In this document: positions 17,293 through 45,107 of the stretch, one piece after another
Layout of the letters: the number at the start of each line of letters is the position of its first letter
How positions within the stretch are numbered: position 1 is the stretch's first letter
Source of the DNA: Candidatus Kuenenia stuttgartensis
GTDB lineage: Bacteria > Pseudomonadota > Alphaproteobacteria > SMXS01
Length of the DNA stretch: 58,665 bases
Direction of reading: 5' to 3'
Assembly: GCA_943329845.2 (NCBI GenBank)
Contig: CALQFM020000019.1
Span: forward strand, 1 to 58,665
Made by a program: the position numbers and the translations under genes
Notes under the pieces: model-generated
What the model was told of the DNA's origin: nothing
Seen by the model: only the letters and a program-made list of their open reading frames with translations
The model's database searches: none

Positions 17293-17332
17293 GGCCGGAC
17301 CCTTCCGATGATCAGTGCGCCTCGGGGTTCAT

Positions 17333-18004: not shown

Positions 18005-18150
18005 GGAATTCCCCTTTCAGTTCTGCCGGTTTTTCGGTTGTGTAGCACGGTTGCCGAGGCTGGCAGCATCAAAAAAGATGTGCCAAGGTACCGCCAAGCC
18101 ATAAGCCGCCGGTGACCGTCCGGCTGCCAATCCGAACAGGGGAGACACGC

Positions 18151-19131: not shown

Positions 19132-19144
19132 CACAATAATTGTG

Positions 19145-19170
19145 ACGGAAGCGGGCATTCCCGCTTCCGT
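19145..19170 (+). promoter_or_regulatory. Hairpin in the cofC leader
   Basis: An 11-bp perfect stem (ACGGAAGCGGG with CCCGCTTCCGT, loop CATT) 13 bases after the LLM stop and just before the cofC ribosome-site-like GGCGGAG. There is no T-run, so it is either a weak terminator or a stability or processing element between the LLM gene and cofC-fbiC. A second small palindrome, CACAATAATTGTG, lies at 19132-19144. Confidence 0.6.
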
Positions 19171-19217
19171 CTCGCCAGGCGGAGACCATCATCCGCGAGA
19201 CGTCCGACATCTGGGCG

Positions 19218-22309: not shown

Positions 22310-22888
22310 CTAACGCTTGATCGTCGCGATCTCGTCGGCGAGCACGGCGCGCTGGCGTTCCGGTGGCCATTGCTGGGGATCGAATACGGTCTCCGTCGCC
22401 AGGCCGGTGATCATCGTCAGCAGGCGGCGAGCCCGTAGTTCCATGGTCTGCTCGGACACGTCGAGCCCCTCGTATTCCCGCGCCAGCACCCGCTTGATCA
22501 GATCGAGCGCCTCGCGGGCACGGCGCTGTTGTTCGGCCATCATCTCGGGATCGTTGGCGACGTGGCCCCAGAAGGCGATCCAGATCTGCCAGTCGCGGGT
22601 CCGCTCCTCGTCGAGCGGCAGCAGCCACTCGACGCATACCTGCATCGGCTTTCCGGCGGCCAGCTCCTCGTCGACCTTCGCCACAGCGCCGACGGCGGCC
22701 GAGCGGAAGATGTAGGTCATCAGCTCGCGCTTGTTGCGGAAGTAGTGCGAGACGATGGCGGTGCTGTAGCCCGCGGCCTTGGCGATGTCGCGGAAGGTGA
22801 CGCCTTCGAGGCCGGACTTGGCCAGCAGCCTCGCCGCAATGGCGGCGACCTGCTTGCGGCGAGCTTCATGATCGACGGGAGGTGGCAT
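22310..22888 (-). CDS. TetR-family transcriptional regulator 1
   Basis: A 192-residue TetR regulator. The N-terminal HTH reads LLAKSGLEGVTFRDIAKAAGYSTAIVSHYFRNKREL, with the recognition helix STAIVSHYF near residue 45. The C-terminal ligand domain has tryptophans (WQIWIAFWGHV) consistent with a hydrophobic effector pocket. It is convergent with fbiC (three bases between stops) and downstream of the PQQ dehydrogenase gene on the same strand. It may control that gene or the neighbouring oxygenase genes. Confidence 0.9.
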   Translation of the reverse strand: MPPPVDHEARRKQVAAIAARLLAKSGLEGVTFRDIAKAAGYSTAIVSHYFRNKRELMTYIFRSAAVGAVAKVDEELAAGKPMQVCVEWLLPLDEERTRDWQIWIAFWGHVANDPEMMAEQQRRAREALDLIKRVLAREYEGLDVSEQTMELRARRLLTMITGLATETVFDPQQWPPERQRAVLADEIATIKR

Positions 22889-22978: not shown

Positions 22979-24865
22979 TCAGCGTCCCGGCGCCTCGTAG
23001 ACCAGCAGCACGTTGCCCGGCATGTGGCCGGCGAAATTGTATCCCGAACTGATGAACAGCAGGCCCCGGTCGGGAACCGCCGCCGCCGCGCCGTCCATGG
23101 ACCCGCCACGCGCCATCACGCCGGACACGGTCTTGACCGGCTGGGTGGTGTCCAGCTTCCACAGGATCTTGCCGGTGGCCGCGTCATGCACGCGGAAATA
23201 GCCGTCGAGCCCACCGGCGAACACCAGCTCGGGCGTGGCGGTGATCGCCGCGGCGTTGCCCACGGCGCAGAATTCGCGACCGTTGCACTCGTCCTCCAGC
23301 TTCATCTGCCAGACATTGGCGCCGGTCTTCAGGTCGAGCGCGAACAAGCCCGGATTGGGCTTGTCCTGGTAGCTGACCGTATCGGGCGCGTCGGAGATCG
23401 GCACGAACACGCGGGCGTTGTCGACCGCGATGCCGAAATGCACGCCACCGTGCAGGCCGCCGCGGCCGAGCCTGGTCTTCCAGATCAGCTTGCCGGTGTC
23501 GGGATCGACCGCATGCACCACGCCCGATTTCTGCGGCCCCAGCACGAGTTCGGTGCCGTCATCGGCGCGCGCCAGGACCATGGCGGCCCCGAAATCGAAA
23601 TCGGGACCGTTCTCCTCCGGGCAGTTGTGCTTGGGCTCGGCCACGCAGGCGGAGTTCCACGCGTCGCCCGACGTGGCCTGGTAGACCCACTTCTTCTTGC
23701 CGGTCTTCAGGTCCATGGCGAACATCGAATCGCTGGTGGCTGTGGCGGGCGACGAATAGTTCTCGCCACTGCCCACATAGAGCTGGCCGCGCTTCTCGTC
23801 GATGGCCGGGCTGTTCCAGATCGGCGCGCCCGACGGGCCGATACGATCGGTGCCGACATCGTTCTTGCCGCGAACCGCCGGCGTCTCGTCGACTGTGTGG
23901 GTCTGCCAGACCGGCTTGCCCGTTGCCGCGTCGAGTGCCGTCACCGAGCCGCGGAAGGTGCAGCAGGCGTATGCCGGATCGGTGGCCGGCACAACCTCGA
24001 GCGACGACACCGGCACGTAGAGCCGGTCGCCATAAAGGGTCGGCGTGCCGGTGATGGTGGCGCTGGGGTGCTCGTCGGGATGGGCGCGCCAGACCTGCTC
24101 GCCGGTCACGGCGTCGATCGCGTAGACATTGCCGATCAGGTCGCCGAAATAGAGCCGGGGCTTCGCGGCCGCATCGCCCGCCTTCCACAGGCTGACGACG
24201 ATGCCGGTGCGCACTTCGGCCGACGCATGATACATCCAGCGCACGCAACCGGTATTCCGGTCCAGCGAGAACACCGTGCCGTTCTGGCTGCCGACGAACA
24301 CGGCACCGCCGGCCAGGCCAGGCTGCGACCGCGCGCGCAAGGCATCGGGGAAGGCGAACGCCCATTTCAGCTTCAGCGACGCCACGTTGGCGCGGCCGAT
24401 ACCGGCGCGCTCGCTGGGTACAAGCCGGTCGTTGCCATAGCCCAGGCCCCAGCTCGGCACCGATGGCGGCTGCCCGTAGTCGAACCGCGCGGCCTCGCCG
24501 GTGCATTGCGGCGCTGCCGACTCGCTGACCTTGGCGCCCAGCTGCCGGTTGGTGAGATATTCTGCGACCTGCTTCTTCTCCAGATCGGAGAGGCGCGCCG
24601 CCTGCGGCTTCATCACGCCCTCTGTCAGCGCCCGGTAGATGGATTCGGGCGCCATGAACTGCAGCATCTTGGGATGCGGCGCGCGCGCGACGCCGGTCTC
24701 ATGGCAGCCGGCGCAGTTGGCCGCGTAGACCTTCCCGCCAGGCGAGTCTTTCTTCTGCTCGGTAAGACCGAGGGATGAATGCTCCCCGGCGCCGGCGGCC
24801 TGCGCTGCGTGAGCGATGAATGCGGCGGCCAGCGCGGCCGTCAGCAAACCCAGTGACCTGCGCAT
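22979..24865 (-). CDS. PQQ-dependent quinohemoprotein dehydrogenase with N-terminal cytochrome c (PVA-dehydrogenase-like)
   Basis: A 628-residue periplasmic protein: signal peptide (MRRSLGLLTAALAAAFIAHA), a cytochrome c domain with CAGCH at residues 51-55 and the distal Met probably in KMLQFMAP, then an eight-bladed PQQ propeller with repeated GK.VW or GKLIWK blade ends. The vicinal cysteine pair of PQQ enzymes is in ACCTFRGS. In type II alcohol dehydrogenases the heme domain is C-terminal. An N-terminal heme domain is the arrangement of polyvinyl-alcohol dehydrogenases of sphingomonads and pseudomonads. It should oxidise a secondary alcohol and pass electrons to the respiratory chain. Substrate is inference; the gene sits beside Rieske oxygenases. 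Confidence 0.9.
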   Translation of the reverse strand: MRRSLGLLTAALAAAFIAHAAQAAGAGEHSSLGLTEQKKDSPGGKVYAANCAGCHETGVARAPHPKMLQFMAPESIYRALTEGVMKPQAARLSDLEKKQVAEYLTNRQLGAKVSESAAPQCTGEAARFDYGQPPSVPSWGLGYGNDRLVPSERAGIGRANVASLKLKWAFAFPDALRARSQPGLAGGAVFVGSQNGTVFSLDRNTGCVRWMYHASAEVRTGIVVSLWKAGDAAAKPRLYFGDLIGNVYAIDAVTGEQVWRAHPDEHPSATITGTPTLYGDRLYVPVSSLEVVPATDPAYACCTFRGSVTALDAATGKPVWQTHTVDETPAVRGKNDVGTDRIGPSGAPIWNSPAIDEKRGQLYVGSGENYSSPATATSDSMFAMDLKTGKKKWVYQATSGDAWNSACVAEPKHNCPEENGPDFDFGAAMVLARADDGTELVLGPQKSGVVHAVDPDTGKLIWKTRLGRGGLHGGVHFGIAVDNARVFVPISDAPDTVSYQDKPNPGLFALDLKTGANVWQMKLEDECNGREFCAVGNAAAITATPELVFAGGLDGYFRVHDAATGKILWKLDTTQPVKTVSGVMARGGSMDGAAAAVPDRGLLFISSGYNFAGHMPGNVLLVYEAPGR

Positions 24866-24904
24866 GAACTTCCTCCCCGAATCGGTCTCGCCGGTTTTCC
24901 CGGT

Positions 24905-25195
24905 CTATTCTCTGCCTGCGCTATAGAGCCTGTCCGCCCTGTCGCCCTCAAGCTCGACCTGCACGTTGCCGAGAAAGTGCCGGGTCGTCTACAGTTCGGA
25001 CAGCACGTCGAACGCGAACTGGCTGGACGGGCCGACGAATCCGCCCATGTCATGGGTCGAGTCGGGATAGAACACCGATTCCAGAAGCTTCCGGTCGCGG
25101 CGGTCCAGCGCCCAGCAATAGCGGTGGACGATGCCGTCGATTTCCTAACGGTCGGCGACCTGGCGCAGCAGGACGGCATCGATCGCTTCGTTCAC
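24905..25195 (-). pseudogene. Decayed NTF2-like (SnoaL-type) gene with two in-frame TAG stops
   Basis: Translation from GTG at 25195, which overlaps the stop of the Rieske gene by four bases (GTGA), gives VNEAIDAVLLRQVADR, stop, EIDGIVHRYCWALDRRDRKL and onward to VLSEL, stop, TTRHFLGNVQVELEGDRA. This is unmistakably the first half of a SnoaL-like domain; compare DRQAIAANLANHSRGIDRCD in the protein at 26700-27785. Two amber codons at positions 17 and 69 interrupt it and the last third is missing, so it is non-functional. It was once coupled to the Rieske oxygenase gene, perhaps as its small subunit-like partner. Readthrough is unlikely because no neighbour contains an internal TAG. Confidence 0.8.
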
Positions 25196-26586
25196 ACGGC
25201 CTCTCCCCTCACGTAGGAATCCAGCGTCTGGTTGAGGTGGCGGATGCGCACCTCCTGATAGGTCGCGAGCGTCTGGCCCGGCTTCCTGCTGGTGGTGAGG
25301 CCTTCCTGCTGCATGCCCAGGTTCCAGGTGTCCTGGTCATAGACATGGCCCATGAACGCGTCCATGCCGGGCACCGTCGTGTAGGACTGCTCGATGGGAA
25401 TGCGCACCGGCTGGGCGGATTCGGGGCGGTTGCCCGAGCGCGGCACCGGCCGCAGGAACAGCAGATCGAACAGCGACTTGTCCGGGCTCGTCCCGATCGG
25501 CCGGAACCGGTAGACCATCGGCATGGACAGACCCGGGAACAGGAACATGTTCGGGAACAGCGTGTACTCGATGGTGTCGAGGATCTCGGAGTCCGACAGG
25601 TGACCCGTCGCCACGTCGAGCGCGTTCTCGAACTGGTCGCGCAGGAAATTGGACATGGTGCGCCGCGCGTTGCCGCCTTCCGGCACCATCACCGGATTGT
25701 CGACCAGCGACCGGTCGCCCATCAGCATGTTGTCGACCTTCTCCTGCTCGGTCAGCGTCCGTCCCAGATGCGGGCTCTGGATGCCGCTCAGGGAAAGGAA
25801 CCGGTCGACATGCTTGTCGCGGATGTCGTACTGGGTGCTGGGTTCCGATGTGCCCGACAGCAGCTGCGGGTGCGTCACCCGCGTGTGGTAGTTTTCCATG
25901 AACGCCTCGGCGGCCAGCTTCCAGTTGCAGGGCAGCTCCTTCTGGATGTGAACCGTGACGTAGCGGTCCTTCATGTTCCAGTTGGCGAAGTCCTTGGTCA
26001 GGATGCCGAGGTATTCCAGCAGCGGCGGCGCATCGTCGTCCATGTTGATGAAGACGAAGCCGCCCCAGGTTTCCGCGCGCACTTCCGGCAGCTTGTAGGC
26101 TTCGGGATCGACGTGGGTGAAGTCCCAGGCGCTGGGGATGTTCTTCAACGTGCCGTCCAGGTTCCACTGCCAGCCGTGATAGATGCAGGTGAAGTCAGGC
26201 TTGGAGCCCTGGGTATGCGACGGGCACAGCTTGGTGCCGCGGTGCAGGCAGGAATTGTAGAACGCCTTGATGCCGCCGGCCTCGTTGCGCATCACGACGA
26301 TGGAATACCGGCCGATGTCGTAGACCACGTAGTCGCCGGGCTCAGGGATATGGTCCTCGCGGCACGCCCATTGCCAGACCTTGGTCCACATCCGCTCCAT
26401 CTCCAGGTCGAAGAACGCCTGGGAGGTATACCGCTCATAGGGAATGTCCTCGTTGCCGAGGAATTCATACGTCTCCTGGTCGAGCGGTGGCGGCACGCTC
26501 TCGTTCAGGCTGCGGAGGATATCCTGTGCACTCGGCTCGGGCGACGCCGTGGCGTAGCGGCGGGCGATATCGGACAGTTCATTCAT
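25192..26586 (-). CDS. Rieske non-heme iron oxygenase, large subunit 1
   Basis: A 464-residue aromatic-ring-hydroxylating-type oxygenase alpha subunit. The Rieske cluster motif is CLHRGTKLC followed by CIYHGW (C-x-H, 17 residues, C-x2-H). The mononuclear iron site is in AEAFMENYHTRVTH (His-x4-His), with the third acidic ligand expected further on near DTIEYTLFPN. The ATG at 26586 has GGGGAAGCG upstream; the reading to 26667 is not needed. It follows the tandem-NTF2 gene by 113 bases on the same strand and was followed by the decayed NTF2 gene. Electron-transfer partners are not adjacent, so a shared ferredoxin/reductase elsewhere is likely. Confidence 0.93.
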   Translation of the reverse strand: MNELSDIARRYATASPEPSAQDILRSLNESVPPPLDQETYEFLGNEDIPYERYTSQAFFDLEMERMWTKVWQWACREDHIPEPGDYVVYDIGRYSIVVMRNEAGGIKAFYNSCLHRGTKLCPSHTQGSKPDFTCIYHGWQWNLDGTLKNIPSAWDFTHVDPEAYKLPEVRAETWGGFVFINMDDDAPPLLEYLGILTKDFANWNMKDRYVTVHIQKELPCNWKLAAEAFMENYHTRVTHPQLLSGTSEPSTQYDIRDKHVDRFLSLSGIQSPHLGRTLTEQEKVDNMLMGDRSLVDNPVMVPEGGNARRTMSNFLRDQFENALDVATGHLSDSEILDTIEYTLFPNMFLFPGLSMPMVYRFRPIGTSPDKSLFDLLFLRPVPRSGNRPESAQPVRIPIEQSYTTVPGMDAFMGHVYDQDTWNLGMQQEGLTTSRKPGQTLATYQEVRIRHLNQTLDSYVRGEAV

Positions 26587-26675
26587 TTCGCTTCCCCATG
26601 CGCTGTCAGACGCGGCACACACGCCTGACGGTTCACGACGCAGGATAGCTCCCGTCCCACGCCACACAAACCGAA

Positions 26676-26693
26676 ACCGACCGATTAGTCAGT
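26676..26693. promoter_or_regulatory. TetR-type palindromic operator candidate upstream of Rieske gene 1
   Basis: ACCGAC, six bases, GTCAGT: an 18-bp near-palindrome whose mismatches are all pyrimidine-for-pyrimidine or purine-for-purine. It lies 90 bases before the Rieske start and seven bases from the end of the tandem-NTF2 gene. Form and spacing fit a TetR-dimer site; which of the two TetR proteins would bind is unknown. Confidence 0.4.
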
Positions 26694-26699
26694 TCCGTC

Positions 26700-27785
26700 T
26701 CACGGCCCCCAGAACGCATAGAGCGGATCGTCGGGATACTTGCCGCCCCGCGTCGTCAGCGTCTCGTACATGCCCTGCCCGGTCTGGTCGGAGGACGGAT
26801 GGCTCGTCATCCAGTCCATCACGAAAGTGCGGTGGGTGTATTTCCAGACGCCGCCGCGCCGCTCGAACCGGTCGATGTAGCGGCCGCCGGTGAGGTCGTC
26901 GGTGAAGCCATCCGGGCCTGGAACCCTGGTGAAGGCGATGACGTAGCTTTCCGCCACGGCGATATCGCCCTCGACGTCGATCCATTCGTTGGCGACCGAG
27001 TGGGACATGCCCTGACGGTCGGCGGTCGCGCCGATGATCATGCCGCAGAACTCGTCGGCCGAGCCGGCGAAGACGCCCACATCGATGGTCGCTCCCGGAT
27101 GCCAGACCGAACGCAGCAGCGCCTCGTCGCCCCGGTCGGTGGCGCGGGCCTGGGCCATGATCAGCTCGTGGATGTCCTGCTTGGCCAGCACCACGGCGGC
27201 TTTATCGGCCAGGTCGTCGGAAACCTGCACGGCGTTGTCTCCCTTGTTCATGTCCTGCTTCCAGGCGGCGAGCAGCCGGTTGCCCGGATCGTCCCCGCCG
27301 CGGGCGCCGCGGATGAACGGCGGTCCCTCATAGGACGGCAGCGCGGTCCCGGTCGGCGCGCGGTTGGTGTTCCAGTCGAGCACGTAGAGCCGGTGCGTCA
27401 TCTTCCAGACGCCGTCGCGCTTCTCGTGCCGGTCGAGGTAGCGCCCGCCGACCATGGTCTGCAACGGCGGCGTCTCGTTGGTGCGTTCCAGATAGGCGAT
27501 GACGTAGCTCTCGGACAGCGCCCGGTCGCCATCCACCCTGATGGACCGGTTGCAATGACGGTGCAGGGTCATCGGGCGGGTGGCGATCAGCCTGACGATG
27601 ACGTCGGCGAACTCGTCCGCCGGGCCGTCGAACATGCCGTAGGAAACGGTCGCGTCCGGGTGATAGACGGACTTGATGAGTGCGGAGTCGCAGCGGTCGA
27701 TGCCGCGGCTGTGGTTCGCCAGGTTGGCGGCGATGGCCTGCCGGTCAGCGATGGCGGCGATGGCGGATGCAAAGTCGGTGGCCAT
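26700..27785 (-). CDS. Tandem NTF2-like (SnoaL-type) two-domain protein
   Basis: A 361-residue protein made of two related NTF2-like domains. Domain 1 (about 15-170) reads DRQAIAANLANHSRGIDRCDSALIKSVYHPDATVSYGMFDG; domain 2 (about 205-355) reads KQDIHELIMAQARATDRGDEALLRSVWHPGATIDVGVFAGSADEF. Each ends in a similar GGRYLDR/GGRYIDR...GVWK.THR block, so the gene is an internal duplication. Single-domain proteins are the norm, acting as dehydratases, isomerases or hydrolases on polycyclic substrates. Start at ATG 27785 with AGGGAAC upstream; the longer reading to 28169 lies inside the receptor gene. It precedes the Rieske gene on the same strand. Confidence 0.85.
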   Translation of the reverse strand: MATDFASAIAAIADRQAIAANLANHSRGIDRCDSALIKSVYHPDATVSYGMFDGPADEFADVIVRLIATRPMTLHRHCNRSIRVDGDRALSESYVIAYLERTNETPPLQTMVGGRYLDRHEKRDGVWKMTHRLYVLDWNTNRAPTGTALPSYEGPPFIRGARGGDDPGNRLLAAWKQDMNKGDNAVQVSDDLADKAAVVLAKQDIHELIMAQARATDRGDEALLRSVWHPGATIDVGVFAGSADEFCGMIIGATADRQGMSHSVANEWIDVEGDIAVAESYVIAFTRVPGPDGFTDDLTGGRYIDRFERRGGVWKYTHRTFVMDWMTSHPSSDQTGQGMYETLTTRGGKYPDDPLYAFWGP

Positions 27786-27809
27786 GCCGGTTGTTCCCTG
27801 AAGAAAGTT

Positions 27810-27840
27810 GGCGTGCCCGGCCGGAGCGGCCAGGCACGCC
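27810..27840 (-). terminator. Hairpin after TonB-dependent receptor 2
   Basis: A 14-position stem with one mismatch (GGCGTGCC and GGCCG against CGGCC and GGCACGCC), immediately past the receptor stop on the minus strand. The T-run is weak (ACTTTCTT), so termination may be partial and allow some read-through into the NTF2/Rieske genes. Confidence 0.55.
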
Positions 27841-27847
27841 CACCTTA

Positions 27848-30220
27848 CTACATCTTCACCTTTACCGTGACGCCAAGGGTGCGCGGGTCGGCATAGTTGA
27901 CCAGACCGAAGACACCCGGCGCGTCGTACACGCTGGAGATATAACGTTCGTCGAACAGGTTGCGCGCCCAGAAACCGACGGACCAAGCCCCCCCTTCCGG
28001 TCCCACGTCGAGGTTGAGATCGACGACATGGGTCGGCTGGATTTCGGAACGCGGTGTGTTGTCCAGCTTCACGTTGTATTTCTTGCTGACGTACTTGTAC
28101 TGGACGTTGGTCTTGACCTCGAAGTCGCCGATCAGGAAGACATACTCCGCGCCCAGATTGGCCGTCCATTTCGGCGAATTCTGGAGGGTATAGCCGGCAA
28201 GCTGTTTGAAGCCGCCCAGCGCGCCGGCGTCGACATACGGGAAGTCAGTATAGGTCGCCACGAGGTAGCCAAGCGAAGCGTTCAAGGTCAGGCCTTCGAC
28301 CGGTACCGCGATTATCTCGGCCTCGATGCCCCTGGTATGAGCGCCAGCGGCGTTGAGGATCGAGTTGCCGTTGACCGTATTGCCGAACTGATCCTTGAAG
28401 AAATAGATCGAGGCCAACTGGATGTCCTGGTACCAGTTGTAGAAGCCGGTCAGGTTGGCGCGCAGCCGGTTGTCGAACCACTCGCTCTTGACGCCGACTT
28501 CGATGGTATCGACATATTCCGGGTTGTACGGACCGATATCTTCCGGAATGCCGACACGGCCGACGAAGCCGCCTGACTTGAAGCCGTGGGCGTAGTACCC
28601 GTACAGCATCATGTCGTCCGTGACATCAAACTCGGCGCCGACCTTGCCGCCCAAATTATCCCAGGACTCCTTCCCAGTGGGTGTCAGGGCCCCAAGGAAT
28701 ATCTCGTTCGGCCCAGCCGTCATATTCAGCACGGGCCCCCGAAGTTCGGCCTTGCCGGTCGTATTGATGAACGTGCTGATGGCGACATTCATGTCGGTGG
28801 TTTCATGCGTGAACCGCACGCCACCCTGAAGCCGGAACCGGTCAGTGATGTCTACGTAGGTCTGCAGGTAGGCCGACATGGTCTTGGTTGATTGATCGAA
28901 ATCGCTCAACTGACGCAGCCCCGGCGCGGCAAACTGGATGCGGAAATCCTGATAATGGTCATAGGCATAGTTCGCGTAGAACAGGCCAACCAACACTTCG
29001 ACGCCGTCCCAGGGCTTGAAGGTGTCGCGCAGTTCCTGGGTGAACTGCCAGCCCGTCGTCAGGCGATCGGTGTCGTCCAGGAACGCGGGCGTATAATCCT
29101 GGTCGGTATACTCGCGAAGGCGGAAATCCTTATACCCCGTAATGGAGGCGATCTCGCCGATGGCCGTATCCCAGTTCATCTTGAACGTGACCGAGTAGGT
29201 GTCCATGTTCGACAGATTCGGGGAGTTGCCATCGCGCGCGCCATAGTACTTCTTCGGCGCATGGCAACGCTCGCCTGCCGGCAGACAGGGCGACTCATAC
29301 ATGGGAAGCAAGGAGACCCCATTCGGCTCGTTCGGATTGGGGTAGACAGTTCCAGCGGGCTGGAACAGCGCCTCGCCCGGCACGGCGCCGTTGATGGATG
29401 GCGGCGAATCGTCGCGCGAACTGAAATACTCGCCGATAAGGGACGCGCTGAAGTTCTCGCCCTTGTCGTAGGTCAGGTTGAGCCGGAAGCCATTGCGGTT
29501 CTTGTCGCCCAGCGACTTGCCATCGACGATGTTGGTGTTAAAGCCGTCGCGCTGGTGGTGGGAGAAGGTCATCCGACCGGACAGCACGTCCTTGACGATC
29601 GGGAAGTCCATGGCACCCTTGAACTCGAACGTGCTGTAGTTTCCGTAGGTAGCCTCGGCCTGCACCCCGAAATCGCCGGAAGGTTTGTTGGTCACAACCT
29701 GGACCACGCCGCCGGTGCTGTTGGCGCCGAACAGGGTGCCCTGCGGACCGCGCAGGATTTCAACGCGCGCCAGGTCGTAGGTGTCCAGCAGCGACGTCAT
29801 ATTGAAGAACTGCGGCACTTCATCCTGCACCACGACCACGGTCGTGCCGGCGTAGGGATCGGGCTCGATCACGCCCATGCCGCGAATGTTGAACACCGCG
29901 CCGTGCGGGGTATTGGCGAACTGCTGGATCTGAACGTTCGGGATGTAACCCTGCAGCGCCTCGAGGGTCACCGCGTGAATGTTCTCCATCCTCGCGCCAG
30001 AAACAGCGGCGACCGAGATCGGCACATTCTGGATGTCTTCCTCTTTCTTCTGCGACGTCACCGTGACGCTTTCGACGCCCTTGGCGATGTCGCTCCTGGG
30101 CGATTCCGCCGGCTTCCCGGCGGCGGGAGGCGGCGTGTCCTGCGCCTGCGCCGCGCCCGCATATAGCCCGAGCAGGCTCAGACATAGAGCCGTGCTCAAC
30201 CCCAACTTCCTGGTGTTCAT
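27848..30220 (-). CDS. TonB-dependent outer-membrane receptor 2
   Basis: A 790-residue receptor with signal peptide (LSTALCLSLLGLYAGAAQAQ), a candidate TonB-contact region ESVTVTSQKKEEDIQ, plug beginning VPISVAAVSGARMENIHAVTL and a barrel ending PRTLGVTVKVKM. The final residue is Met rather than aromatic, which is less usual for a barrel terminus. GGGGAG precedes the ATG. It lies directly upstream of the tandem-NTF2 and Rieske genes on the same strand and is divergent from a TetR gene, so it probably imports the substrate of this catabolic cluster under TetR control. Ligand unknown; iron chelates remain possible. Confidence 0.93.
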   Translation of the reverse strand: MNTRKLGLSTALCLSLLGLYAGAAQAQDTPPPAAGKPAESPRSDIAKGVESVTVTSQKKEEDIQNVPISVAAVSGARMENIHAVTLEALQGYIPNVQIQQFANTPHGAVFNIRGMGVIEPDPYAGTTVVVVQDEVPQFFNMTSLLDTYDLARVEILRGPQGTLFGANSTGGVVQVVTNKPSGDFGVQAEATYGNYSTFEFKGAMDFPIVKDVLSGRMTFSHHQRDGFNTNIVDGKSLGDKNRNGFRLNLTYDKGENFSASLIGEYFSSRDDSPPSINGAVPGEALFQPAGTVYPNPNEPNGVSLLPMYESPCLPAGERCHAPKKYYGARDGNSPNLSNMDTYSVTFKMNWDTAIGEIASITGYKDFRLREYTDQDYTPAFLDDTDRLTTGWQFTQELRDTFKPWDGVEVLVGLFYANYAYDHYQDFRIQFAAPGLRQLSDFDQSTKTMSAYLQTYVDITDRFRLQGGVRFTHETTDMNVAISTFINTTGKAELRGPVLNMTAGPNEIFLGALTPTGKESWDNLGGKVGAEFDVTDDMMLYGYYAHGFKSGGFVGRVGIPEDIGPYNPEYVDTIEVGVKSEWFDNRLRANLTGFYNWYQDIQLASIYFFKDQFGNTVNGNSILNAAGAHTRGIEAEIIAVPVEGLTLNASLGYLVATYTDFPYVDAGALGGFKQLAGYTLQNSPKWTANLGAEYVFLIGDFEVKTNVQYKYVSKKYNVKLDNTPRSEIQPTHVVDLNLDVGPEGGAWSVGFWARNLFDERYISSVYDAPGVFGLVNYADPRTLGVTVKVKM

Positions 30221-30289
30221 GTGTAACTCCCCGCTGTGTCGGCCGTTGCTCCGGCCCGATTGTCGCTAAGTTCCAAACTATGCATTTAC

Positions 30290-30303
30290 TCAACGATCGT
30301 GTA
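30290..30303. promoter_or_regulatory. Operator-like site 1 (TCAACGATCGT) before TonB receptor 2
   Basis: TCAACGATCGTGTA lies 70 bases before the receptor start. Its left part matches the palindrome TCAACAATCGTTGA at 30449-30462 in the same intergenic space. A TetR-family gene reads away from the other side. A repressor site shared by the divergent pair is the simplest reading. Confidence 0.45.
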
Positions 30304-30448
30304 AATATTTTCCTGACCATATGATCAAAAACATACTGCTATGTCGCTAAAATACCACAATAGGCACCCTAACCAGGTATGTGGAGGCCAAAATTCAACT
30401 CCAAATCCATTTCTTTCGTTCTGGGAGATGATTTGGCAATATTCCTAT

Positions 30449-30462
30449 TCAACAATCGTTGA
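30449..30462. promoter_or_regulatory. Operator-like site 2 (TCAACAATCGTTGA) before TetR gene 2
   Basis: A 14-bp near-perfect palindrome located 58 bases before the TetR start. It shares TCAAC-ATCGT with site 1 at 30290. The surrounding intergenic DNA (30221-30519) is AT-richer than the genes, consistent with divergent promoters. Confidence 0.5.
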
Positions 30463-30519
30463 TGACTTTAGCAACCGACCTTCCCAGATTCCCTCGCCCC
30501 TGGCACCGCGGACCCGCCC

Positions 30520-31170
30520 ATGAATGCTCCCGATACCGGCCCGACAACGCGCGACCGTATCCTCAACGCGGCCGAGCGCCTGTTTGCGCAGCGCGGCTAT
30601 TACGGCGTCACCATCCGCCAGATCACCCGCGAGGCGGGCGTCGACGTGGCGCTGGCCAGCTACTATTTCGGGCCGAAGGCCGACCTGTTCCGGGCGGTGC
30701 TGGAGCGCAGGGCCGAGGAGCTGCACGGTGCCATCCTGGCGTCCATCGACGCCGTGGAGAAACGCGCGGGTGACCGGCCGCCCGGCGTCGAAAGCCTGAT
30801 CCGCGCCTTCGCCCAGCCGTCCATCGACCGGCTGGTGCGCGGCGGCGAAGGCTGGCGCGACTACATCCACATGATGGCGGGACTCTACAGCTCGCAGCAG
30901 AGCGAGTTCCTCGTCGCCATGAACGACATGTACACGCCCGCCATGCGGCGCGTCATGGAGCTGATCCGCCTGTCGATCCCGACGGCCAGCGAACGCAGCG
31001 TGACGCTGTCGTTCTACATGCTGCTGACGGCGGTGATCAGCATCTACTCGGAGACGGTCGGCCTGGAGCGGCTGTCCAACGGGACCATCCATCCAACGGA
31101 TTTCGACGCCATATTGGATCACCTCGCGCCGTTCTTCGCGGCGGGGTTCCATCGCATGGCTTCCGTCTAG
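30520..31170 (+). CDS. TetR-family transcriptional regulator 2
   Basis: A 216-residue TetR regulator with HTH ILNAAERLFAQRGYYGVTIRQITREAGVDVALASYYFGPKADLF near the N-terminus, and a ligand domain with the helix FYMLLTAVISIYSETVGLERL. It is divergent from TonB receptor 2 across about 300 bases holding two related operator-like sites, and reads toward the flavoprotein/Rieske genes. It is therefore the best candidate for local control of substrate uptake and oxidation. No strong ribosome site is visible before the ATG. Confidence 0.92.
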   Translation: MNAPDTGPTTRDRILNAAERLFAQRGYYGVTIRQITREAGVDVALASYYFGPKADLFRAVLERRAEELHGAILASIDAVEKRAGDRPPGVESLIRAFAQPSIDRLVRGGEGWRDYIHMMAGLYSSQQSEFLVAMNDMYTPAMRRVMELIRLSIPTASERSVTLSFYMLLTAVISIYSETVGLERLSNGTIHPTDFDAILDHLAPFFAAGFHRMASV

Positions 31171-31229
31171 AGGTCCTCCCCAGGACCGTACCGTAGCGGG
31201 CATCTCTGCGACCTCGCGCGAATGGTACG

Positions 31230-31241
31230 TGACATCTGTCA
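31230..31241. promoter_or_regulatory. Operator-like palindrome TGACATCTGTCA, copy 1
   Basis: TGACA-TC-TGTCA, repeated exactly at 31264-31275 (34 bases apart, start to start) in the leader of the flavoprotein gene at 31324. A promoter-like TATCAT lies between the copies at 31252-31257. Two identical inverted repeats around a -10-like element suggest a repressor or activator dimer pair. Confidence 0.55.
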
Positions 31242-31263
31242 TGTAAACTGTATCATCGGTTGA

Positions 31264-31275
31264 TGACATCTGTCA
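31264..31275. promoter_or_regulatory. Operator-like palindrome TGACATCTGTCA, copy 2
   Basis: Identical to the site at 31230-31241 and flanked by an extra inverted base pair (A...T). It ends 48 bases before the flavoprotein start codon. Confidence 0.55.
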
Positions 31276-31323
31276 TGCACAATCATGAATCCATGAGGCA
31301 TGGCGCGGAACGGGGAGCGAGAC

Positions 31324-33081
31324 ATGTCCGACACACCTTCATCAAAGATCAGCCGCAGGCAGATTCTGGCGGGCGCCGGCATCGCGGCCGGCGCCGCGGC
31401 GACACTCGCCGTCACTGGATCGGCCGCGGCGGCGCCAAAGACCAGCTGGGATCAGGAAGCGGATATCGTCGTCGTGGGCGGCGGCTCGGCCGCCTGCTCG
31501 GCGGCGGTAACGGCCGCGAGCCTGGGCGACAAGGTCATCCTGCTGGAAAAGGAAGCGATCCTGGGCGGCACCACCAACAAGTCGGGCGGCGTCGCCTGGG
31601 TGCCGAACAATCCGGAGATGCGCAAGGCCGGCGTTACCGACACGCGCGCCGACTGCCTCAAATACATGGCGCGTTTCTCGTTCTCGCAGGCCTACAATCC
31701 CAACAGCCCGACACTGGGCCTCGATGCGCTGACCTACCGGCAGCTCGAGGCGTTCTATGACAATGGCGCGGCGACCATCGAATTTCTCGACAAGGTCGGC
31801 GCCGCCAAATACGCGACCTTCAGGGTGGGCGGCAACCCGTCGCCCGACTATGCCGACCATCTGCCCGAGAACAAGGCACCGAAGGGCCGCTCGCTGACAC
31901 CGGTCAACGACAAGGGCGAGGCGGTCAGCGGCAATATCGGCGACGGCGTCGTGCTGATCGGCGCCATGGAAGCGTGGCTGAACAAGAACAAGGTGCCGCT
32001 GCTGACCGAGCACCGGGTGACCGCCGTGATCAAGGAAGCCGGCCGGGTCGTCGGTGTCGAGGCCGAGAGCGGCGGCAAGACCATCCGGATCAAGGCGCGC
32101 AAGGGCGTGATCTTCGGCACCGGCGGCTATGCCCACAATACCGACCTGGTGCAGCTTCACCAGAAGGCGCTGTACGGCGCCTGCGCCATGCCCGGCTCGA
32201 CCGGCGACTTCATCGCCATCGGCGGCGCGGCGGGCGCGAAGATGGGCACGCTGGGCACCGCCTGGCGGACGCAGGTGGTGTTCGAGGAGGCGCTGAAGAA
32301 CCGGGTGCTGCCGCAGGGCGTGTTCTTCATCCCGGCCGACGCCATGTTCGTGGTCAACAAGTATGGCAAGCGGGTCGTCAACGAGAAGCGCAACTATAAC
32401 GATCGCACCGAGGTGCATTTCGTCTATGATCCGGTGCACGAGGATTTCTCCAACCAGCTGCTGTTCATGGTGTTCGACGGCCGGGTGGTGGACGCGTTCG
32501 GCGGCGCCTATCCGATCCCCGCGCCCGGCAATATCGGCCCCCATGTCATCGAGGCGACCGACCTGCAGTCGTTGGCCGCGGCCATCGGCAAGCGGCTTGA
32601 AGGGCTGAGGGACAAGAGTGGCGGCTGCACCCTGGCCGAGGATTTCCCGGCCACGCTGAAGACCACGATCGACCAGTTCAACGGTTACGCCCGGAGCGGC
32701 AAGGATCCGGACTTCAAGCGCGGCGACCAGTCCTACGACCGGGAATGGCAGGCGTTCTTCTCGCAGATGCGCGAGGGCAGCACCGAGAAGCCCAACAGCA
32801 TGCCGAATTCGACCATGCACCCGCTGCGCGACAAGGGTCCGTATTACTGCATCATCCTGGCCGCCGGCGCGCTCGATACCAGCGGCGGGCCGCAGATCAA
32901 TGAGAAGGCCCAGGTGATGGGCGCGGACGGCACGCCGATCCCCGGCCTCTATGGCGCCGGCAACTGCATCGCCAGCCCGTCGCGCGAGGCATACTATGGC
33001 GCGGGCGGCACCATCGGGCTGTGCCTGACCTTCGGCTACATTGCCGCCCAGACCGCGCACAAGGAGACGGCGGCGGCCTGA
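31324..33081 (+). CDS. Tat-exported FAD-binding dehydrogenase (fumarate reductase/3-ketosteroid-dehydrogenase-like)
   Basis: A 585-residue FAD-binding-2 family protein. The N-terminus has a twin-arginine signal, SRRQILAGAGIAAGAAATLA, with a likely cleavage after AAAA. The FAD motif is IVVVGGGSAACSAAVTAASLGDKVILLEKE, and the C-terminal FAD block is GLYGAGNCIASPSREAYYGA followed by GTIGLCLTFGYIAA. This fold includes flavocytochrome c reductases and 3-ketosteroid delta-1-dehydrogenases; Tat export of a cofactor-loaded enzyme points to the periplasm. GGGGAG precedes the ATG. It is followed by Rieske gene 2 after 26 bases. Substrate unknown. Confidence 0.9.
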   Translation: MSDTPSSKISRRQILAGAGIAAGAAATLAVTGSAAAAPKTSWDQEADIVVVGGGSAACSAAVTAASLGDKVILLEKEAILGGTTNKSGGVAWVPNNPEMRKAGVTDTRADCLKYMARFSFSQAYNPNSPTLGLDALTYRQLEAFYDNGAATIEFLDKVGAAKYATFRVGGNPSPDYADHLPENKAPKGRSLTPVNDKGEAVSGNIGDGVVLIGAMEAWLNKNKVPLLTEHRVTAVIKEAGRVVGVEAESGGKTIRIKARKGVIFGTGGYAHNTDLVQLHQKALYGACAMPGSTGDFIAIGGAAGAKMGTLGTAWRTQVVFEEALKNRVLPQGVFFIPADAMFVVNKYGKRVVNEKRNYNDRTEVHFVYDPVHEDFSNQLLFMVFDGRVVDAFGGAYPIPAPGNIGPHVIEATDLQSLAAAIGKRLEGLRDKSGGCTLAEDFPATLKTTIDQFNGYARSGKDPDFKRGDQSYDREWQAFFSQMREGSTEKPNSMPNSTMHPLRDKGPYYCIILAAGALDTSGGPQINEKAQVMGADGTPIPGLYGAGNCIASPSREAYYGAGGTIGLCLTFGYIAAQTAHKETAAA

Positions 33082-33107
33082 CCAGTGGGGCACACGCGGA
33101 GGTGACC

Positions 33108-34454
33108 ATGAACAAGCCAGCCGGCACGCACGAGTCTTACGCCGCGCGCTTCGTCAGTGAGATTTTCCCTGAGCGCTACAAGCGCGGCGCCCTGCACGGC
33201 GAGCGCTACACCTCGGCCGACTTCTTCGCCCGCGAGTGGGAGAACGTCTGGACCAAGGTCTGGCTGGTGATCGCCCGTACCGCAGAAATCCCGGAGGCCG
33301 GCGATTTCGTCGTCGAGGACATCGGCCCCGAATCCATCCTGGTGGTGCGCCAGGAGGACGGCGGCATCCGGGCGTTCTACAACGTGTGCCAGCACCGCGG
33401 GAACCGGCTGGTGCAGCCGGCAGAAGGCTCCATGCCGTCCTTCACCTGCGACTACCACAGCTGGACCTGGGGCATCGACGGCAGCCTGGTGTCGGTGCAG
33501 GACGAGGGCGATTTCTCTGAAGGCAGCCCGTGCGGCACCGTCCGGCTGGAGGAGATGAAATGCGAGGTGTTCGCCGGATTCTTCTTCGTCAACATGGACA
33601 AGGACGGCATATCCCTGAAGGACTATCTCGGCCCGATCTGGGACCGCTGGCAGGTCTATCCGGTCGAGAACATGACGCGGGTGCAGGCGCTGACCGTCAG
33701 CCTGCCCAGCAACTGGAAGGCGCTGCACGACAATTTCAGCGAGGTCTATCACTTCGCCACGGTGCACGCGCCTTACCTCGACTACCTGGAGGACGACTTC
33801 CGCGACATCAGCTGCGAGATCTTCGACCAGGGCCATACGGTGATGCACATGAAGGGCGGCCTGCCCTCGGCACACTATCTCGACAGCGACCTGCCGCCGA
33901 TCAGCGAGCAGCTCGGCGCCGAGCTGAGGCGCTGGGACCTGGACCCCGCCGATTTCACCGACCGGCCGACCGAGACGCGGCTGGCGCTGCAGCGGCAGAA
34001 GCGCACGCTGGGTCCCGCGCGCGGCCACACGCACTACGAGAAGATGAGCGACAGCCAGCTCACAGACAGCCACCACTATACCATCTTCCCGAATTTCTCG
34101 GCCGGCATGCTGGCCGACGGCATCCTGTTCCATCGGCTGCGGCCCCATGCGACCGACCCGAACCAGTCCTATTACGATGTGTTCTACTACGCCTCCGGAG
34201 ACGACGCGTTCAGCAGCATGTCGACGGCGGCTGGCGGCGGCCTCGCCGAGGCCGAGCGCGAATATGTGGCGTTCGGCGAGAAGAGCCTGGGCGCCCTGCT
34301 CGACGGCGACGTCGGCACCATGGCGACCCAGCAGAAGGGACTGCGCTCACGCGGCTATCGCGGCGGCGTGCTCGCCGACCAGGAATACCGGCTGGCGTTC
34401 TACCATCACATGATCGACCGCTACATGGCGGGATACAGGCCGGGGAAGCCCTAG
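33108..34454 (+). CDS. Rieske non-heme iron oxygenase, large subunit 2
   Basis: A 448-residue Rieske oxygenase alpha subunit. The cluster motif is CQHRGNRL with CDYHSWTW (C-x-H, then C-x2-H), and the iron site is DNFSEVYHFATVHA (His-x4-His). The last part has HHYTIFPNFSAGMLADG, the usual strand before the third iron ligand. The ATG at 33108 has CGGAGGTG upstream, an excellent ribosome site. It is co-oriented with the Tat flavoprotein gene and convergent with a ferredoxin gene, with stops overlapping by four bases. It is a distant relative of the oxygenase at 25192, so two separate hydroxylation steps are likely. Confidence 0.93.
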   Translation: MNKPAGTHESYAARFVSEIFPERYKRGALHGERYTSADFFAREWENVWTKVWLVIARTAEIPEAGDFVVEDIGPESILVVRQEDGGIRAFYNVCQHRGNRLVQPAEGSMPSFTCDYHSWTWGIDGSLVSVQDEGDFSEGSPCGTVRLEEMKCEVFAGFFFVNMDKDGISLKDYLGPIWDRWQVYPVENMTRVQALTVSLPSNWKALHDNFSEVYHFATVHAPYLDYLEDDFRDISCEIFDQGHTVMHMKGGLPSAHYLDSDLPPISEQLGAELRRWDLDPADFTDRPTETRLALQRQKRTLGPARGHTHYEKMSDSQLTDSHHYTIFPNFSAGMLADGILFHRLRPHATDPNQSYYDVFYYASGDDAFSSMSTAAGGGLAEAEREYVAFGEKSLGALLDGDVGTMATQQKGLRSRGYRGGVLADQEYRLAFYHHMIDRYMAGYRPGKP

Positions 34455-34771
34455 AACTGCGCTTCGGGCAGCCGGATCACCAGGCCGTCCACCTCCGCGG
34501 TCATCTCGATCTGGCAGGTCAGGCGGCTGCACGGCAGCACGTCGACGGCGCAGGACAGCATGTCCTGCTCCTCCTCGGACGGCGGCGCGAGCCGCGGCGC
34601 CCAGGCTTCGTCCACATAGCCGTGACAGGTGGCGCAGGACAGGCACCCGCCGCACTCGCCCATGATGCCGGGAATCAGCGCGTCAGTGGCCGCCTTCATC
34701 ACCGAGCGGCCGGCTTCGGCGTCGAGGATGTGTTCGGCGCCCGAGGCGTCGATGACGATCAGTTTCACCAT
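34451..34771 (-). CDS. 2Fe-2S ferredoxin (adrenodoxin/putidaredoxin type)
   Basis: A 106-residue [2Fe-2S] ferredoxin. The cluster loop is GECGGCLSCATCHGYV (C-x5-C-x2-C pattern of the vertebrate-type family), with the last cysteine in DVLPCSRLTCQI, of which CSRLTCQ is the hallmark. The acidic stretch EEEQDML is the usual P450-contact helix. It lies four bases after the P450 gene on the same strand, so it is that enzyme's electron donor. A matching ferredoxin reductase is not in this window. Confidence 0.93.
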   Translation of the reverse strand: MVKLIVIDASGAEHILDAEAGRSVMKAATDALIPGIMGECGGCLSCATCHGYVDEAWAPRLAPPSEEEQDMLSCAVDVLPCSRLTCQIEMTAEVDGLVIRLPEAQF

Positions 34772-34775
34772 GCGC

Positions 34776-35999
34776 TCAAGCCTGCCAGACCAGCGGCAGA
34801 TCGACCACCGTGCCGACGATGCCGTAGAGCACTTTCGGCGTCCGGCCGGGCGCGATGTCGAAGTCGGGAATGCGCGACAGCCACTCCTCGAGGAAGATGC
34901 GCAGCTCGGCCCGCGCCAGCAGCGAGCCGGGGCAACGATGGACGCCGGCGCCGAAGGTGGAGTGGATGCCGATGCGGCGGTTGAAGTCCACGTCGAGCGG
35001 GCATTGATAGGCCCGGTCGTCGAGGCCGTGCAGCATGGTCGGCACCAGGATCAGGTCGCCTTCCTTGAAGGTCACGCCCTGGAATTCCATGTCCCGGATC
35101 ACTGTGCGCGGGATCGCGACCAGCGGGAAGCGCCGCAGGAACTCCTCCACCGCCGGCGGGATCATCGCCGGATCGGCGACGAGCTGGCGTCGGTGGTCCG
35201 GATTCCGGGCGAGGAACATCATCAGGAACCCCAGCACCGACACGACCGTGTCGAGCCCGGCGATCAGCACCTGCATGCACAGTTCGAACGCCTCGCCGTC
35301 GGTCATGGGCCGGCCGTCGATGCTGCCGGCCAGGAACTGGCTGAACAGATCGTCGCCCGGGTTCTTCCGGCGCTCCAGCAGCACCGGCATCAGATAGTCG
35401 TAGAAACCCTGGTTGACCTCTTCCGGCGTCATCGACCCGTCGGGCCGGTTCACCTGCTCGGACAGCGCCTTGAGCTTGATGCGGTCCTCGACCGGCAGAT
35501 TGACCATCTTCAGGAACAGGCTGATCGGCAGCAGCTCGGCGAATTCCGAGGCAAACTCGCAGTGCCCTCTCGCGCGGAACGCCTCGATCAGCGACACGGT
35601 CAGCTCGCGGATCGACGGCTCCAGCCCGCGCACCACCTTGGGCGACAGGCCGTGGTTGATCAGGTTGCGGAACGGCCGGTGCTCGGGCGGGTCGAGCGAG
35701 GTGGGCAGCACGCGGATCGCCTCGTTGCGCTCCACCGGCAGCAGGATGTTGCGCGACGAGAACAGGTCGTGGTCGGCGTAAATGGTATGGATGTCCTCGC
35801 CACGGGTGGCGATCCAGTGGCCGCCATTGTACGGCGTCCAGACGAAGTCCGGGCGGCCTTCGCCCTGCAGCTTCTTCCAGTATTCGAAGAAGTCCTCTTC
35901 GGGCGCCGGCTGGGCGAACAGGTCGAAATCGATGACGCATTCCGCTGGCACATGTGCCGGCACGTCCGACTTGCGGAACAGTTCTGTGGCTTCGGCCAT
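34776..35999 (-). CDS. Cytochrome P450 (bacterial class I, P450cam-like)
   Basis: A 407-residue soluble P450. The I-helix motif is LIAGLDTVVS, the K-helix E-x-x-R is EEFLRR, and the heme loop is FGAGVHRCPGSLLAR with the cysteine thiolate. LPISLFLKMVNLPVEDRIKLKAL resembles the P450cam branch, which hydroxylates terpenoids such as camphor and linalool. The ATG at 35999 (MAEATELF) has GGGGATC upstream. It forms a two-gene operon with the ferredoxin. A terpenoid or steroid-like substrate is plausible but not shown. Confidence 0.93.
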   Translation of the reverse strand: MAEATELFRKSDVPAHVPAECVIDFDLFAQPAPEEDFFEYWKKLQGEGRPDFVWTPYNGGHWIATRGEDIHTIYADHDLFSSRNILLPVERNEAIRVLPTSLDPPEHRPFRNLINHGLSPKVVRGLEPSIRELTVSLIEAFRARGHCEFASEFAELLPISLFLKMVNLPVEDRIKLKALSEQVNRPDGSMTPEEVNQGFYDYLMPVLLERRKNPGDDLFSQFLAGSIDGRPMTDGEAFELCMQVLIAGLDTVVSVLGFLMMFLARNPDHRRQLVADPAMIPPAVEEFLRRFPLVAIPRTVIRDMEFQGVTFKEGDLILVPTMLHGLDDRAYQCPLDVDFNRRIGIHSTFGAGVHRCPGSLLARAELRIFLEEWLSRIPDFDIAPGRTPKVLYGIVGTVVDLPLVWQA

Positions 36000-36078: not shown

Positions 36079-36480
36079 TCATGAACTTATCAACCGCGCC
36101 GCGGCGACGCCCGCCACCGAGCAGATCATGGTCAGCACCGCGCCCCACAGCATGTCGGCCACGGTAATCGCCAAGGTCCAGTGCTTCAAGGTCGCCAGGT
36201 TGGTCAGGTCGTAGGTCCCATACGCCATCAGACCCAGCAGGAAGCCGCAGATCGCGGCGGTCTTCAGCGACTGGGCCGCGATCCCCGGCGCCATGGCGAA
36301 GAACAGCACGCCGCCCAGATAGAATACGTAGAACGCGATCGCGGCCGGGATATTGAAGGGCTCGCGGAGCAACCCGCCGATCTGGCCGTGATAGAAGCCG
36401 CGCGCCACCACCCCCAACCACAGCAGGTCGAGTGCGAGGAACACGACGCCGGCAGCGGCATAAGCCCAGACATAGATCAT
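36079..36480 (-). CDS. DUF2177-family membrane protein
   Basis: A 133-residue hydrophobic protein with four predicted membrane helices (AYAAAGVVFLALDLLWLGVV, PAAIAFYVFYLGGVLFFAMA, TAAICGFLLGLMAYGTYDLT, AVADMLWGAVL-type segment). The motifs YVWAYAAAG, LDLLWLG, FYHGQIGGLL and YGTYDLTNLATL match DUF2177, a widespread inner-membrane family of unknown function. The ATG at 36480 has GGAGGAAAG upstream; the reading to 36549 is not needed. It lies downstream of the VOC-2 terminator and upstream of the P450 on the same strand. Confidence 0.85.
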   Translation of the reverse strand: MIYVWAYAAAGVVFLALDLLWLGVVARGFYHGQIGGLLREPFNIPAAIAFYVFYLGGVLFFAMAPGIAAQSLKTAAICGFLLGLMAYGTYDLTNLATLKHWTLAITVADMLWGAVLTMICSVAGVAAARLISS

Positions 36481-36636: not shown

Positions 36637-37164
36637 TTACATAGTCATGATCGGGTTGTCGCCCGGCTTGAACAGCTCGTGGGCGCGCTTCCACTGGGCG
36701 AAGGTGCCCAGGATGTGCTTGGGGTCGCCGTGCAGTTCGGTGAAACCGCCACTGACCGAGCGGGTGTCGAAGTAGCAGGCGTCGACCTCGTCGGCATACA
36801 GCCGGCAGGCGTCGACGAAACCGGCGTCCTGCAGGCGCTTGTACTCGGCCTCGAAGTCGTGCACCAGCAGGCCGAGGTGGTGATAGCCTTCCTCGCCCGC
36901 CTTGTACATGTCGCGGTAGATCGACGGCTTGTCGTCATGCTGCTGGATGAACTGGATCATCATGTCGCCCAGATAGCCGAACGCATAGGACACGTCGGCC
37001 TCGATGTCCTGGCCGCGGTAGTGGAACTTGTCGGTGACGTGATGCGGCACCATGACGAACGGGCCCGCATAATACAGCTTCGCCCACTTGTTGATCGACG
37101 CTTCCAGGTCGTTCACGTAGTACGCGTACTGGAATATCGGATATTGCGATAACAACGCTGCCAT
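36637..37164 (-). CDS. VOC-superfamily protein, paralogue 2
   Basis: A 175-residue VOC protein beginning with the paired-module strand FQYAYYVNDLEASINKWAKL. It shares IQFIQQHDDKPSIYRDMYKA and EGYHHLGLLVHDF with the proteins at 1984-2520 and 44499-45086; the closing acidic strand is SGGFTELHGD, typical of this paralogue group. It stands alone with its own terminator. Upstream at 37255-37266 is a perfect palindrome ACATGCGCATGT. Reaction unknown; a role on a catabolic intermediate is likely from context. Confidence 0.82.
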   Translation of the reverse strand: MAALLSQYPIFQYAYYVNDLEASINKWAKLYYAGPFVMVPHHVTDKFHYRGQDIEADVSYAFGYLGDMMIQFIQQHDDKPSIYRDMYKAGEEGYHHLGLLVHDFEAEYKRLQDAGFVDACRLYADEVDACYFDTRSVSGGFTELHGDPKHILGTFAQWKRAHELFKPGDNPIMTM

Positions 37165-45086: not shown

Positions 45087-45107
45087 GTCGGTTCTCCCCG
45101 GGGACAT

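Follow-up and report, generated by a model that had tools for sequence, protein, structure and literature searches.

What does a bacterium oxidize with a tightly packed group of oxygenase genes, and do such genes belong together at all? This question is raised by a stretch of 58,665 nucleotides (contig CALQFM020000019.1 of assembly GCA_943329845.2, listed as Candidatus Kuenenia stuttgartensis and placed by GTDB in the Alphaproteobacteria), which in its full length is referred to as the window. A first-pass annotation, confined to positions 25192-35999, had proposed the multi-step oxidation of a terpenoid, steroid or other polycyclic compound. We give even odds to the larger region from 22.3 to 37.2 kb being an accessory module for the catabolism of a hydrophobic alicyclic compound that resembles a terpenoid or norisoprenoid, presumably a ketone. 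This reading draws on the families of the genes, on their order and how far it is conserved, and on catalytic residues, with function deduced from them.

In the proposed route, a TonB-dependent receptor (27848-30220, minus strand; here and below, families were assigned with Pfam unless stated otherwise) would bring the compound into the periplasm. A secreted pyrroloquinoline quinone (PQQ)-type beta-propeller dehydrogenase with a fused cytochrome c domain (22979-24865, minus strand; secretion signal recognized by eye) would oxidize a ring alcohol to the ketone, which a flavin adenine dinucleotide (FAD)-dependent enzyme exported by the twin-arginine translocation (Tat) pathway (31300-33081, plus strand) would desaturate to the enone. 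Two cytoplasmic Rieske oxygenases, termed Rieske1 (25192-26586, minus strand, about 464 residues, in an open reading frame that opens at 26667) and Rieske2 (33108-34454, plus strand), together with a cytochrome P450 of the CYP101 type (34776-35999, minus strand), would add hydroxyl groups, and a tandem SnoaL protein of 361 residues (26700-27785, minus strand; two SnoaL_4 stretches, 129 bits) may dehydrate or isomerize the product. Electrons are expected to pass from NAD(P)H via the only PF14759 reductase of the genome, located on contig C93, to the local putidaredoxin-like ferredoxin (34451-34771, minus strand) and from there to the P450 and possibly Rieske2.

The exported flavoenzyme and the P450

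The FAD enzyme had been described as an exported flavoprotein, in agreement with its FAD_binding_2 domain and an SRRQIL twin-arginine leader found in its sequence. It scores 381 bits to the structure 8am8, compared to 149 bits to the best solved 3-ketosteroid dehydrogenase (KSTD). The entries 8AM3, 8AM6 and 8AM8 are structures from a study of cyclohexanone dehydrogenase (CDH) of Alicycliphilus denitrificans K601 (PMC10966990), which names Tyr195, Tyr376, Tyr570 and Gly574 as catalytic residues. All four are kept in the window enzyme as Tyr184, Tyr366, Tyr565 and Gly569 and are invariant in four aligned sequences. Judged by these scores, CDH is by far the closest relative of known structure, with KSTDs ranking much lower, and a steroid as first choice of substrate was rejected on the same numbers.

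The P450, annotated as P450cam-like together with its ferredoxin, shares 192 of 395 aligned residues (48.6%) with P450cam (D297L chain) and 180 of 395 (45.6%) with CYP101J2. By the nomenclature rule quoted in PMC8197338, in which more than 40% identity defines a family and 55% a subfamily, the protein is on sequence identity a member of the CYP101 family and, being below 55% to both compared enzymes, probably represents a separate subfamily. Camphor-binding CYP101 enzymes employ a tyrosine that is missing in ionone-preferring members (PMC9655578). The CYP101 substrates named in the literature consulted are small terpenoids for the most part, and flavonoids in the case of CYP101D5. In the window P450, Tyr96, Phe87 and Phe98 of P450cam are replaced by Ile, Leu and Val, and Thr101, Arg112, Asp251, Thr252 and the heme ligand Cys357 are kept. 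Of the latter, the heme cysteine, the Asp251/Thr252 pair and Arg112, which acts in ferredoxin docking, are features expected of CYP101 enzymes. The Fer2-type [2Fe-2S] ferredoxin is of the putidaredoxin/adrenodoxin type, with Ferredoxin VI and putidaredoxin as matches in the PDB, and its gene starts 4 bp after the end of the P450 gene. A second tight pair is formed by the CDH-like gene and Rieske2, whose most likely start at 33108 lies 26 bp past the end of the former.

The two Rieske oxygenases

Both Rieske proteins, correctly recognized at first pass, have the Rieske/Ring_hydroxyl_A architecture of alpha subunits and are far from solved enzymes, with 113 and 128 bits at best. The Rieske ligand motifs (CLHRG/CIYHGW and CQHRG/CDYHSW) and the histidine motifs of the mononuclear iron (MENYHTRVTH and SEVYHFATVH) are present. 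The closest solved relative of Rieske2 is the carnitine monooxygenase CntA (128 bits, about 200 residues aligned in the main stretch), with which it has a glutamate at the bridging position in common. As a marker of a quaternary-ammonium substrate this residue was rejected, since it occurs in every one of the 50 related rows that matched the motif pattern; the full set of 57 rows, seven of them without a pattern match, was assembled by similarity to both Rieskes of the window and contains duplicates. After removal of two short and seven duplicate rows, 48 entered a phylogenetic tree. A specific kinship of Rieske1 to Rieskes located beside CDH genes in Gammaproteobacteria, suggested by identities of 56-57%, was discarded as the tree places the protein elsewhere, weakly with a sequence from locus L057 (83/82).

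Conservation in related genomes

A match to the CDH-like enzyme at E≤1e-60 was found in four of the 143 genomes searched, the own genome and three others referred to as G005, G006 and G007. In G005, a congener, the order of the genes is kept, from the first TetR regulator, the PQQ dehydrogenase (87% identity), the tandem SnoaL protein (90%), the TonB receptor and the second TetR regulator to CDH, Rieske2, the ferredoxin, a DUF2177 protein and a VOC protein. Between the genes of the ferredoxin and the DUF2177 protein, a search of 196 bp recovered the stump of a P450 C-terminus (20 of 50 residues, E=3e-7), so that the P450 was deleted in this genome with the ferredoxin staying intact, the latter showing a ratio of non-synonymous to synonymous substitution rates (dN/dS) of 0.15 relative to the window protein. 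Its retention would be explained if a P450-type ferredoxin also feeds Rieske2; instead of Rieske2, it may serve other P450s of G005, for which a first look listed 44 candidates. In G006, the contig starts at CDH and continues with Rieske2, the ferredoxin, the P450 and the DUF2177 protein. Across both genomes, the genes for CDH, Rieske2 and the ferredoxin show dN/dS values of 0.11-0.40, and those for the DUF2177 and VOC proteins are conserved as well. Because it is kept in both, the set of CDH, Rieske2 and ferredoxin is, by comparative evidence, the stable core of the cluster, to which the P450 and Rieske1 are accessory. The locus in G007 holds a CDH homologue of 51% identity and a different Rieske (37%) and P450 (27%).

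Related clusters on plasmids and in other genomes

Plasmid searches yielded nine records for CDH (E≤1e-80), 17 for the P450 (E≤1e-70) and 31 for Rieske2 (E≤1e-60), with the best 15 considered for each of the latter two. Three Novosphingobium records (pNL2, ES2-1 p1 and THN1) are common to these lists and encode CDH, the P450 and the Rieske2 homologue within about 10 kb, at identities of about 53-54% for CDH, 44-46% for the CYP101-like P450 and 40-41% for the Rieske2 homologue. The closest named cluster is found on pNL2 of Novosphingobium aromaticivorans DSM 12444 (SARO_RS18525-RS18605), where seven genes of the window are represented within a single run: the TonB receptor (SARO_RS18525, 47%), the tandem SnoaL protein (SARO_RS18530, 45% over 356 residues), the P450 (46%), a protein of the Rieske1 type (SARO_RS18545, 49%), one of the Rieske2 type (SARO_RS18570, 41%) next to CDH (53%), and a VOC protein (31%). 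The window ferredoxin, the PQQ dehydrogenase and the F420 genes discussed below gave no match at E 1e-6 in 25.6 kb of pNL2, and no functional study of this cluster was found in the literature listing and excerpts consulted. An equation of the pNL2 P450 with any of its best solved relatives was rejected at scores of 384 bits or less. This kind of cluster is already present on Novosphingobium plasmids, and the surprise lies in the genome rather than in the cluster; the proposed module would assign a concrete and testable class of substrates to genes that are also found on pNL2, the plasmid of a tractable laboratory strain.

A scan of genome contigs for CDH-type loci returned 79 loci, 24 with a CDH homologue of at least 42% identity and 54 with a more distant FAD enzyme, with L119 left out. 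Within the fetched DNA, a P450 was encoded at five of the close and 16 of the distant loci and a VOC protein at five and none, respectively. Besides those on the three Novosphingobium plasmids, CYP101-like P450s near CDH were found at L051, which belongs to G006 (90%), and at L057 (45%).

The multi-step oxidation of a hydrophobic cyclic compound, as initially proposed, is supported by the membership of the P450 in CYP101, by the CDH-type desaturase and by the clustering of the same kinds of genes on Novosphingobium plasmids. The original argument from the combination of genes alone is weak, since the genome is packed with such genes and since the G005 locus does without two of them. Among the options named at the outset, the best fit is a terpenoid or another ketone of alicyclic structure, with a steroid being possible though less likely.

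Alternative explanations

Several observations weigh against the proposed module. Rieske1 and the P450 are both absent from the G005 locus, and the place of Rieske1 in the tree is not specific to CDH neighbours. A Rieske gene accompanies only 12 of the 24 close CDH loci, compared to 12 of the 54 distant ones, and several of these rows are near relatives, such as L058, L061 and L062 with 81-88% DNA identity in their main pieces. The P450s near CDH in L058, L062 and L106 are just 27% identical to the window P450 and so are not CYP101 members. No gene for ring cleavage or a coenzyme A (CoA) pathway was detected among the cluster proteins scanned, with the exception of the VOC protein, which belongs to a superfamily that also comprises ring-cleaving dioxygenases. 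Finally, two findings point towards steroids: CDH relatives occur in steroid-type taxa (Steroidobacteraceae, 50%; Sterolibacteriaceae, 44%; Panacagrimonas, 43%), and the best plasmid homologue of Rieske2 (50%, among the best 15 of 31) is found in Sphingobium Tom strains beside genes for a FAD homologue of 31% identity, a VOC protein and a TonB receptor. These strains have reportedly been tied to work on steroidal glycoalkaloids of tomato; the consulted text of PMC10653915, which concerns such work, does not name them.

The best surviving alternative, which we regard as unlikely although not negligible, is a side branch of steroid or triterpenoid metabolism, in which the FAD enzyme would act as KSTD-like desaturase and the Rieske and P450 enzymes would hydroxylate sterols. 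In addition to the two findings just named, it is favoured by the similarity of the FAD enzyme to solved KSTDs and to KSTD profiles, and by the predominance of Alphaproteobacteria, among other groups, in steroid-degradation matches from sponge metagenomes, as reported in PMC5790920. However, the flavoenzyme is much closer to CDH than to KSTDs, as detailed above, its best NCBIfam match reaches 276 of the 789 bits set as cut-off by the curated KSTD model with the others being lower (among 25 of 45 NCBIfam matches listed), and the CYP101 substrates named above are mostly small terpenoids.

Less probable still is a chance neighbourhood, in which unrelated oxygenases have come together in a genome saturated with them. 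The own genome (3.68 Mb in 107 contigs, with an estimated completeness of 100% and contamination of 0.68%) contains 58 PF00848 Rieske alpha places, including a few fragments located at the ends of contigs. Its 47 P450 matches collapse into 43 places, 42 over the Pfam cut-off and one below. No PF00866 beta subunit was found over the cut-off, with three weak matches below. Compared to at most 17 P450s per genome among the 599 alphaproteobacterial species surveyed in PMC8197338, this genome is an outlier, and in a first-look ranking of 289 alphaproteobacterial genomes, with at most about ten candidates scored per genome, it came second (59) to G165 (62; 7% contaminated). Our literature search for such an oxygenase-packed genome brought up no paper that we recognized as describing this lineage. 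Under random placement, in a model that ignores contig ends, stretches of 10.8 kb with at least two Rieskes and one P450 number 1.4 on average, with at least one found in 76-78% of trials and at least four in 4% (0.04), compared to four observed. Oxygenase genes thus clump somewhat, and one group such as that of the window is expected somewhere in the genome; two Rieskes and a P450 standing together were therefore rejected as being telling in themselves. The variable presence of Rieske1 and the P450 among congeners is also in line with chance. Conversely, chance is countered by the synteny with G005, which extends over CDH, Rieske2, the ferredoxin, the VOC protein, the tandem SnoaL protein and the TonB receptor, by the synteny of CDH, Rieske2, the ferredoxin and the P450 with G006, and by the recurrence of the same kinds of genes on Novosphingobium plasmids.

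Detoxification or tailoring of a terpenoid of host or microbial origin without growth on it, as suggested by the lack of CoA-pathway genes among the scanned proteins and by a HlyD-like and RND-type efflux pair at 37.5-41.8 kb (families assigned by eye), is the least probable of the three, since the TonB receptor and the PQQ-cytochrome c dehydrogenase suggest that the compound is taken up and oxidized with a gain of energy and since genes for a CoA-transferase, an AMP-ligase and an acyl-CoA dehydrogenase are found at related loci.

Electron supply

The initial statement that no reductase is present holds for the cluster, but not for the genome, whose single glutathione reductase (GR)-type enzyme with a PF14759 domain adjoins its own adrenodoxin-type ferredoxin on C93. 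One such reductase is found in each of nine out of ten genomes of the family, always with the ferredoxin beside it; the exception is G004, a genome of 78% completeness. Reductases containing PF00175 number zero in the own genome and in six of nine other family genomes, and one or two in the remaining three; our census covers reductases with PF14759 or PF00175. A GR-type reductase in combination with a putidaredoxin-type ferredoxin corresponds to a class IIA Rieske system. It is conceivable, albeit doubtful, that this single reductase with its adjoining ferredoxin feeds dozens of oxygenases in members of the family and about 100 in the own genome (58 Rieske alpha and 43 P450 places), and that P450-type ferredoxins cross over to Rieskes that consist of alpha subunits only. 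If one reductase indeed serves all, the genome would offer a natural experiment on the extent to which a single electron-transfer chain can be shared. VOC-like genes are found beside this reductase at locus L137.

Neighbouring genes

The first pass had counted two regulators within its interval, where we find a single TetR protein (TetR_C_30; 30520-31170, plus strand), whose best NCBIfam match is PsrA with 85 of 300 bits; the other, with a BetI-type C-terminus, lies outside at 22310-22888 on the minus strand. The tandem SnoaL_4 protein and the PQQ dehydrogenase, 47% identical over 271 residues to a protein of plasmid 2 of Aromatoleum aromaticum EbN1, had gone unmentioned, as had three further features on the minus strand. 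The genes for Rieske1 and the PQQ dehydrogenase are separated by a SnoaL_4-like pseudogene (about 24866-25191), recognized by eye in a translated frame with in-frame stops, for which the corresponding interval in G005, with only about 210 bp between the SnoaL and PQQ genes, is too short. Upstream of the P450 gene are those of a DUF2177 membrane protein (36079-36480) and a VOC/Glyoxalase_4 protein (36637-37164). Glyoxalase_4 proteins recur in the window at 1984-2520 and 44499-45107, and VOC genes are located near Rieske genes in L058, L061, L062, L106 and on Novosphingobium plasmids.

The cluster is adjoined by a set of F420 biosynthesis genes at 15.6-22.3 kb (15581-22306), encoding CofD, F420 ligase, an NpdG-like protein, a luciferase-like oxidoreductase, CofC and FbiC. 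F420 genes are also found near CDH homologues in L055 and L059, corresponding to two of the 24 close and none of the 54 distant loci, and on EbN1 plasmid 2 at a distance of 30 kb from CDH. We treat this link as a lead and not as a result, because L055 and L059 carry the same island, which encodes CDH, an AMP-ligase, PNPOx, an acyl-CoA dehydrogenase, an enoyl-CoA hydratase, SnoaL and a TonB receptor, and because homologues of FbiC turn up on 58 plasmid records, many of them from Alphaproteobacteria. Towards the right end of the window, an autotransporter beta-domain protein (46244-48436) and a phage-type integrase (53187-54347), the latter adjoining nucleotide-sugar and glycosyltransferase genes, are encoded.

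Relation to known systems

The flavoenzyme resembles the Alicycliphilus CDH in its full-length match, its twin-arginine leader and the four catalytic residues. Unlike the latter, it is clustered with Rieske and P450 genes, and its substrate is a prediction. With the CYP101/putidaredoxin systems of P450cam and CYP101J2, the window P450 shares 46-49% identity, the residues Arg112, Asp251, Thr252 and the heme cysteine and a putidaredoxin-like partner encoded next to it, but it differs in the replacement of Tyr96, Phe87 and Phe98 and in the lack of an adjoining reductase. At the level of the cluster, p1 of Novosphingobium sp. ES2-1 has P450, Rieskes, SnoaL, VOC and CDH in common with the window. 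In addition to its counterparts of window genes, pNL2 carries extra Rieskes, NTF2-like proteins and SDRs.

For the genome as a whole, an expansion of Rieske paralogues has been described for SAR202, where group VII genomes contain 1-62 alpha and 1-3 beta copies, the genome with 62 copies being that of a sponge symbiont (PMC6946804); these organisms, however, are Chloroflexi. The sharing of one GR-type reductase by several terminal Rieske oxygenases has its counterpart in sphingomonads, for which PMC4048848 describes seven alpha/beta pairs on one electron-transfer set, with a Rieske-type ferredoxin in strain PNB. In contrast, the own genome contains 58 alpha places with no beta subunit over the cut-off, an adrenodoxin-type ferredoxin and, in addition, 43 P450 places.

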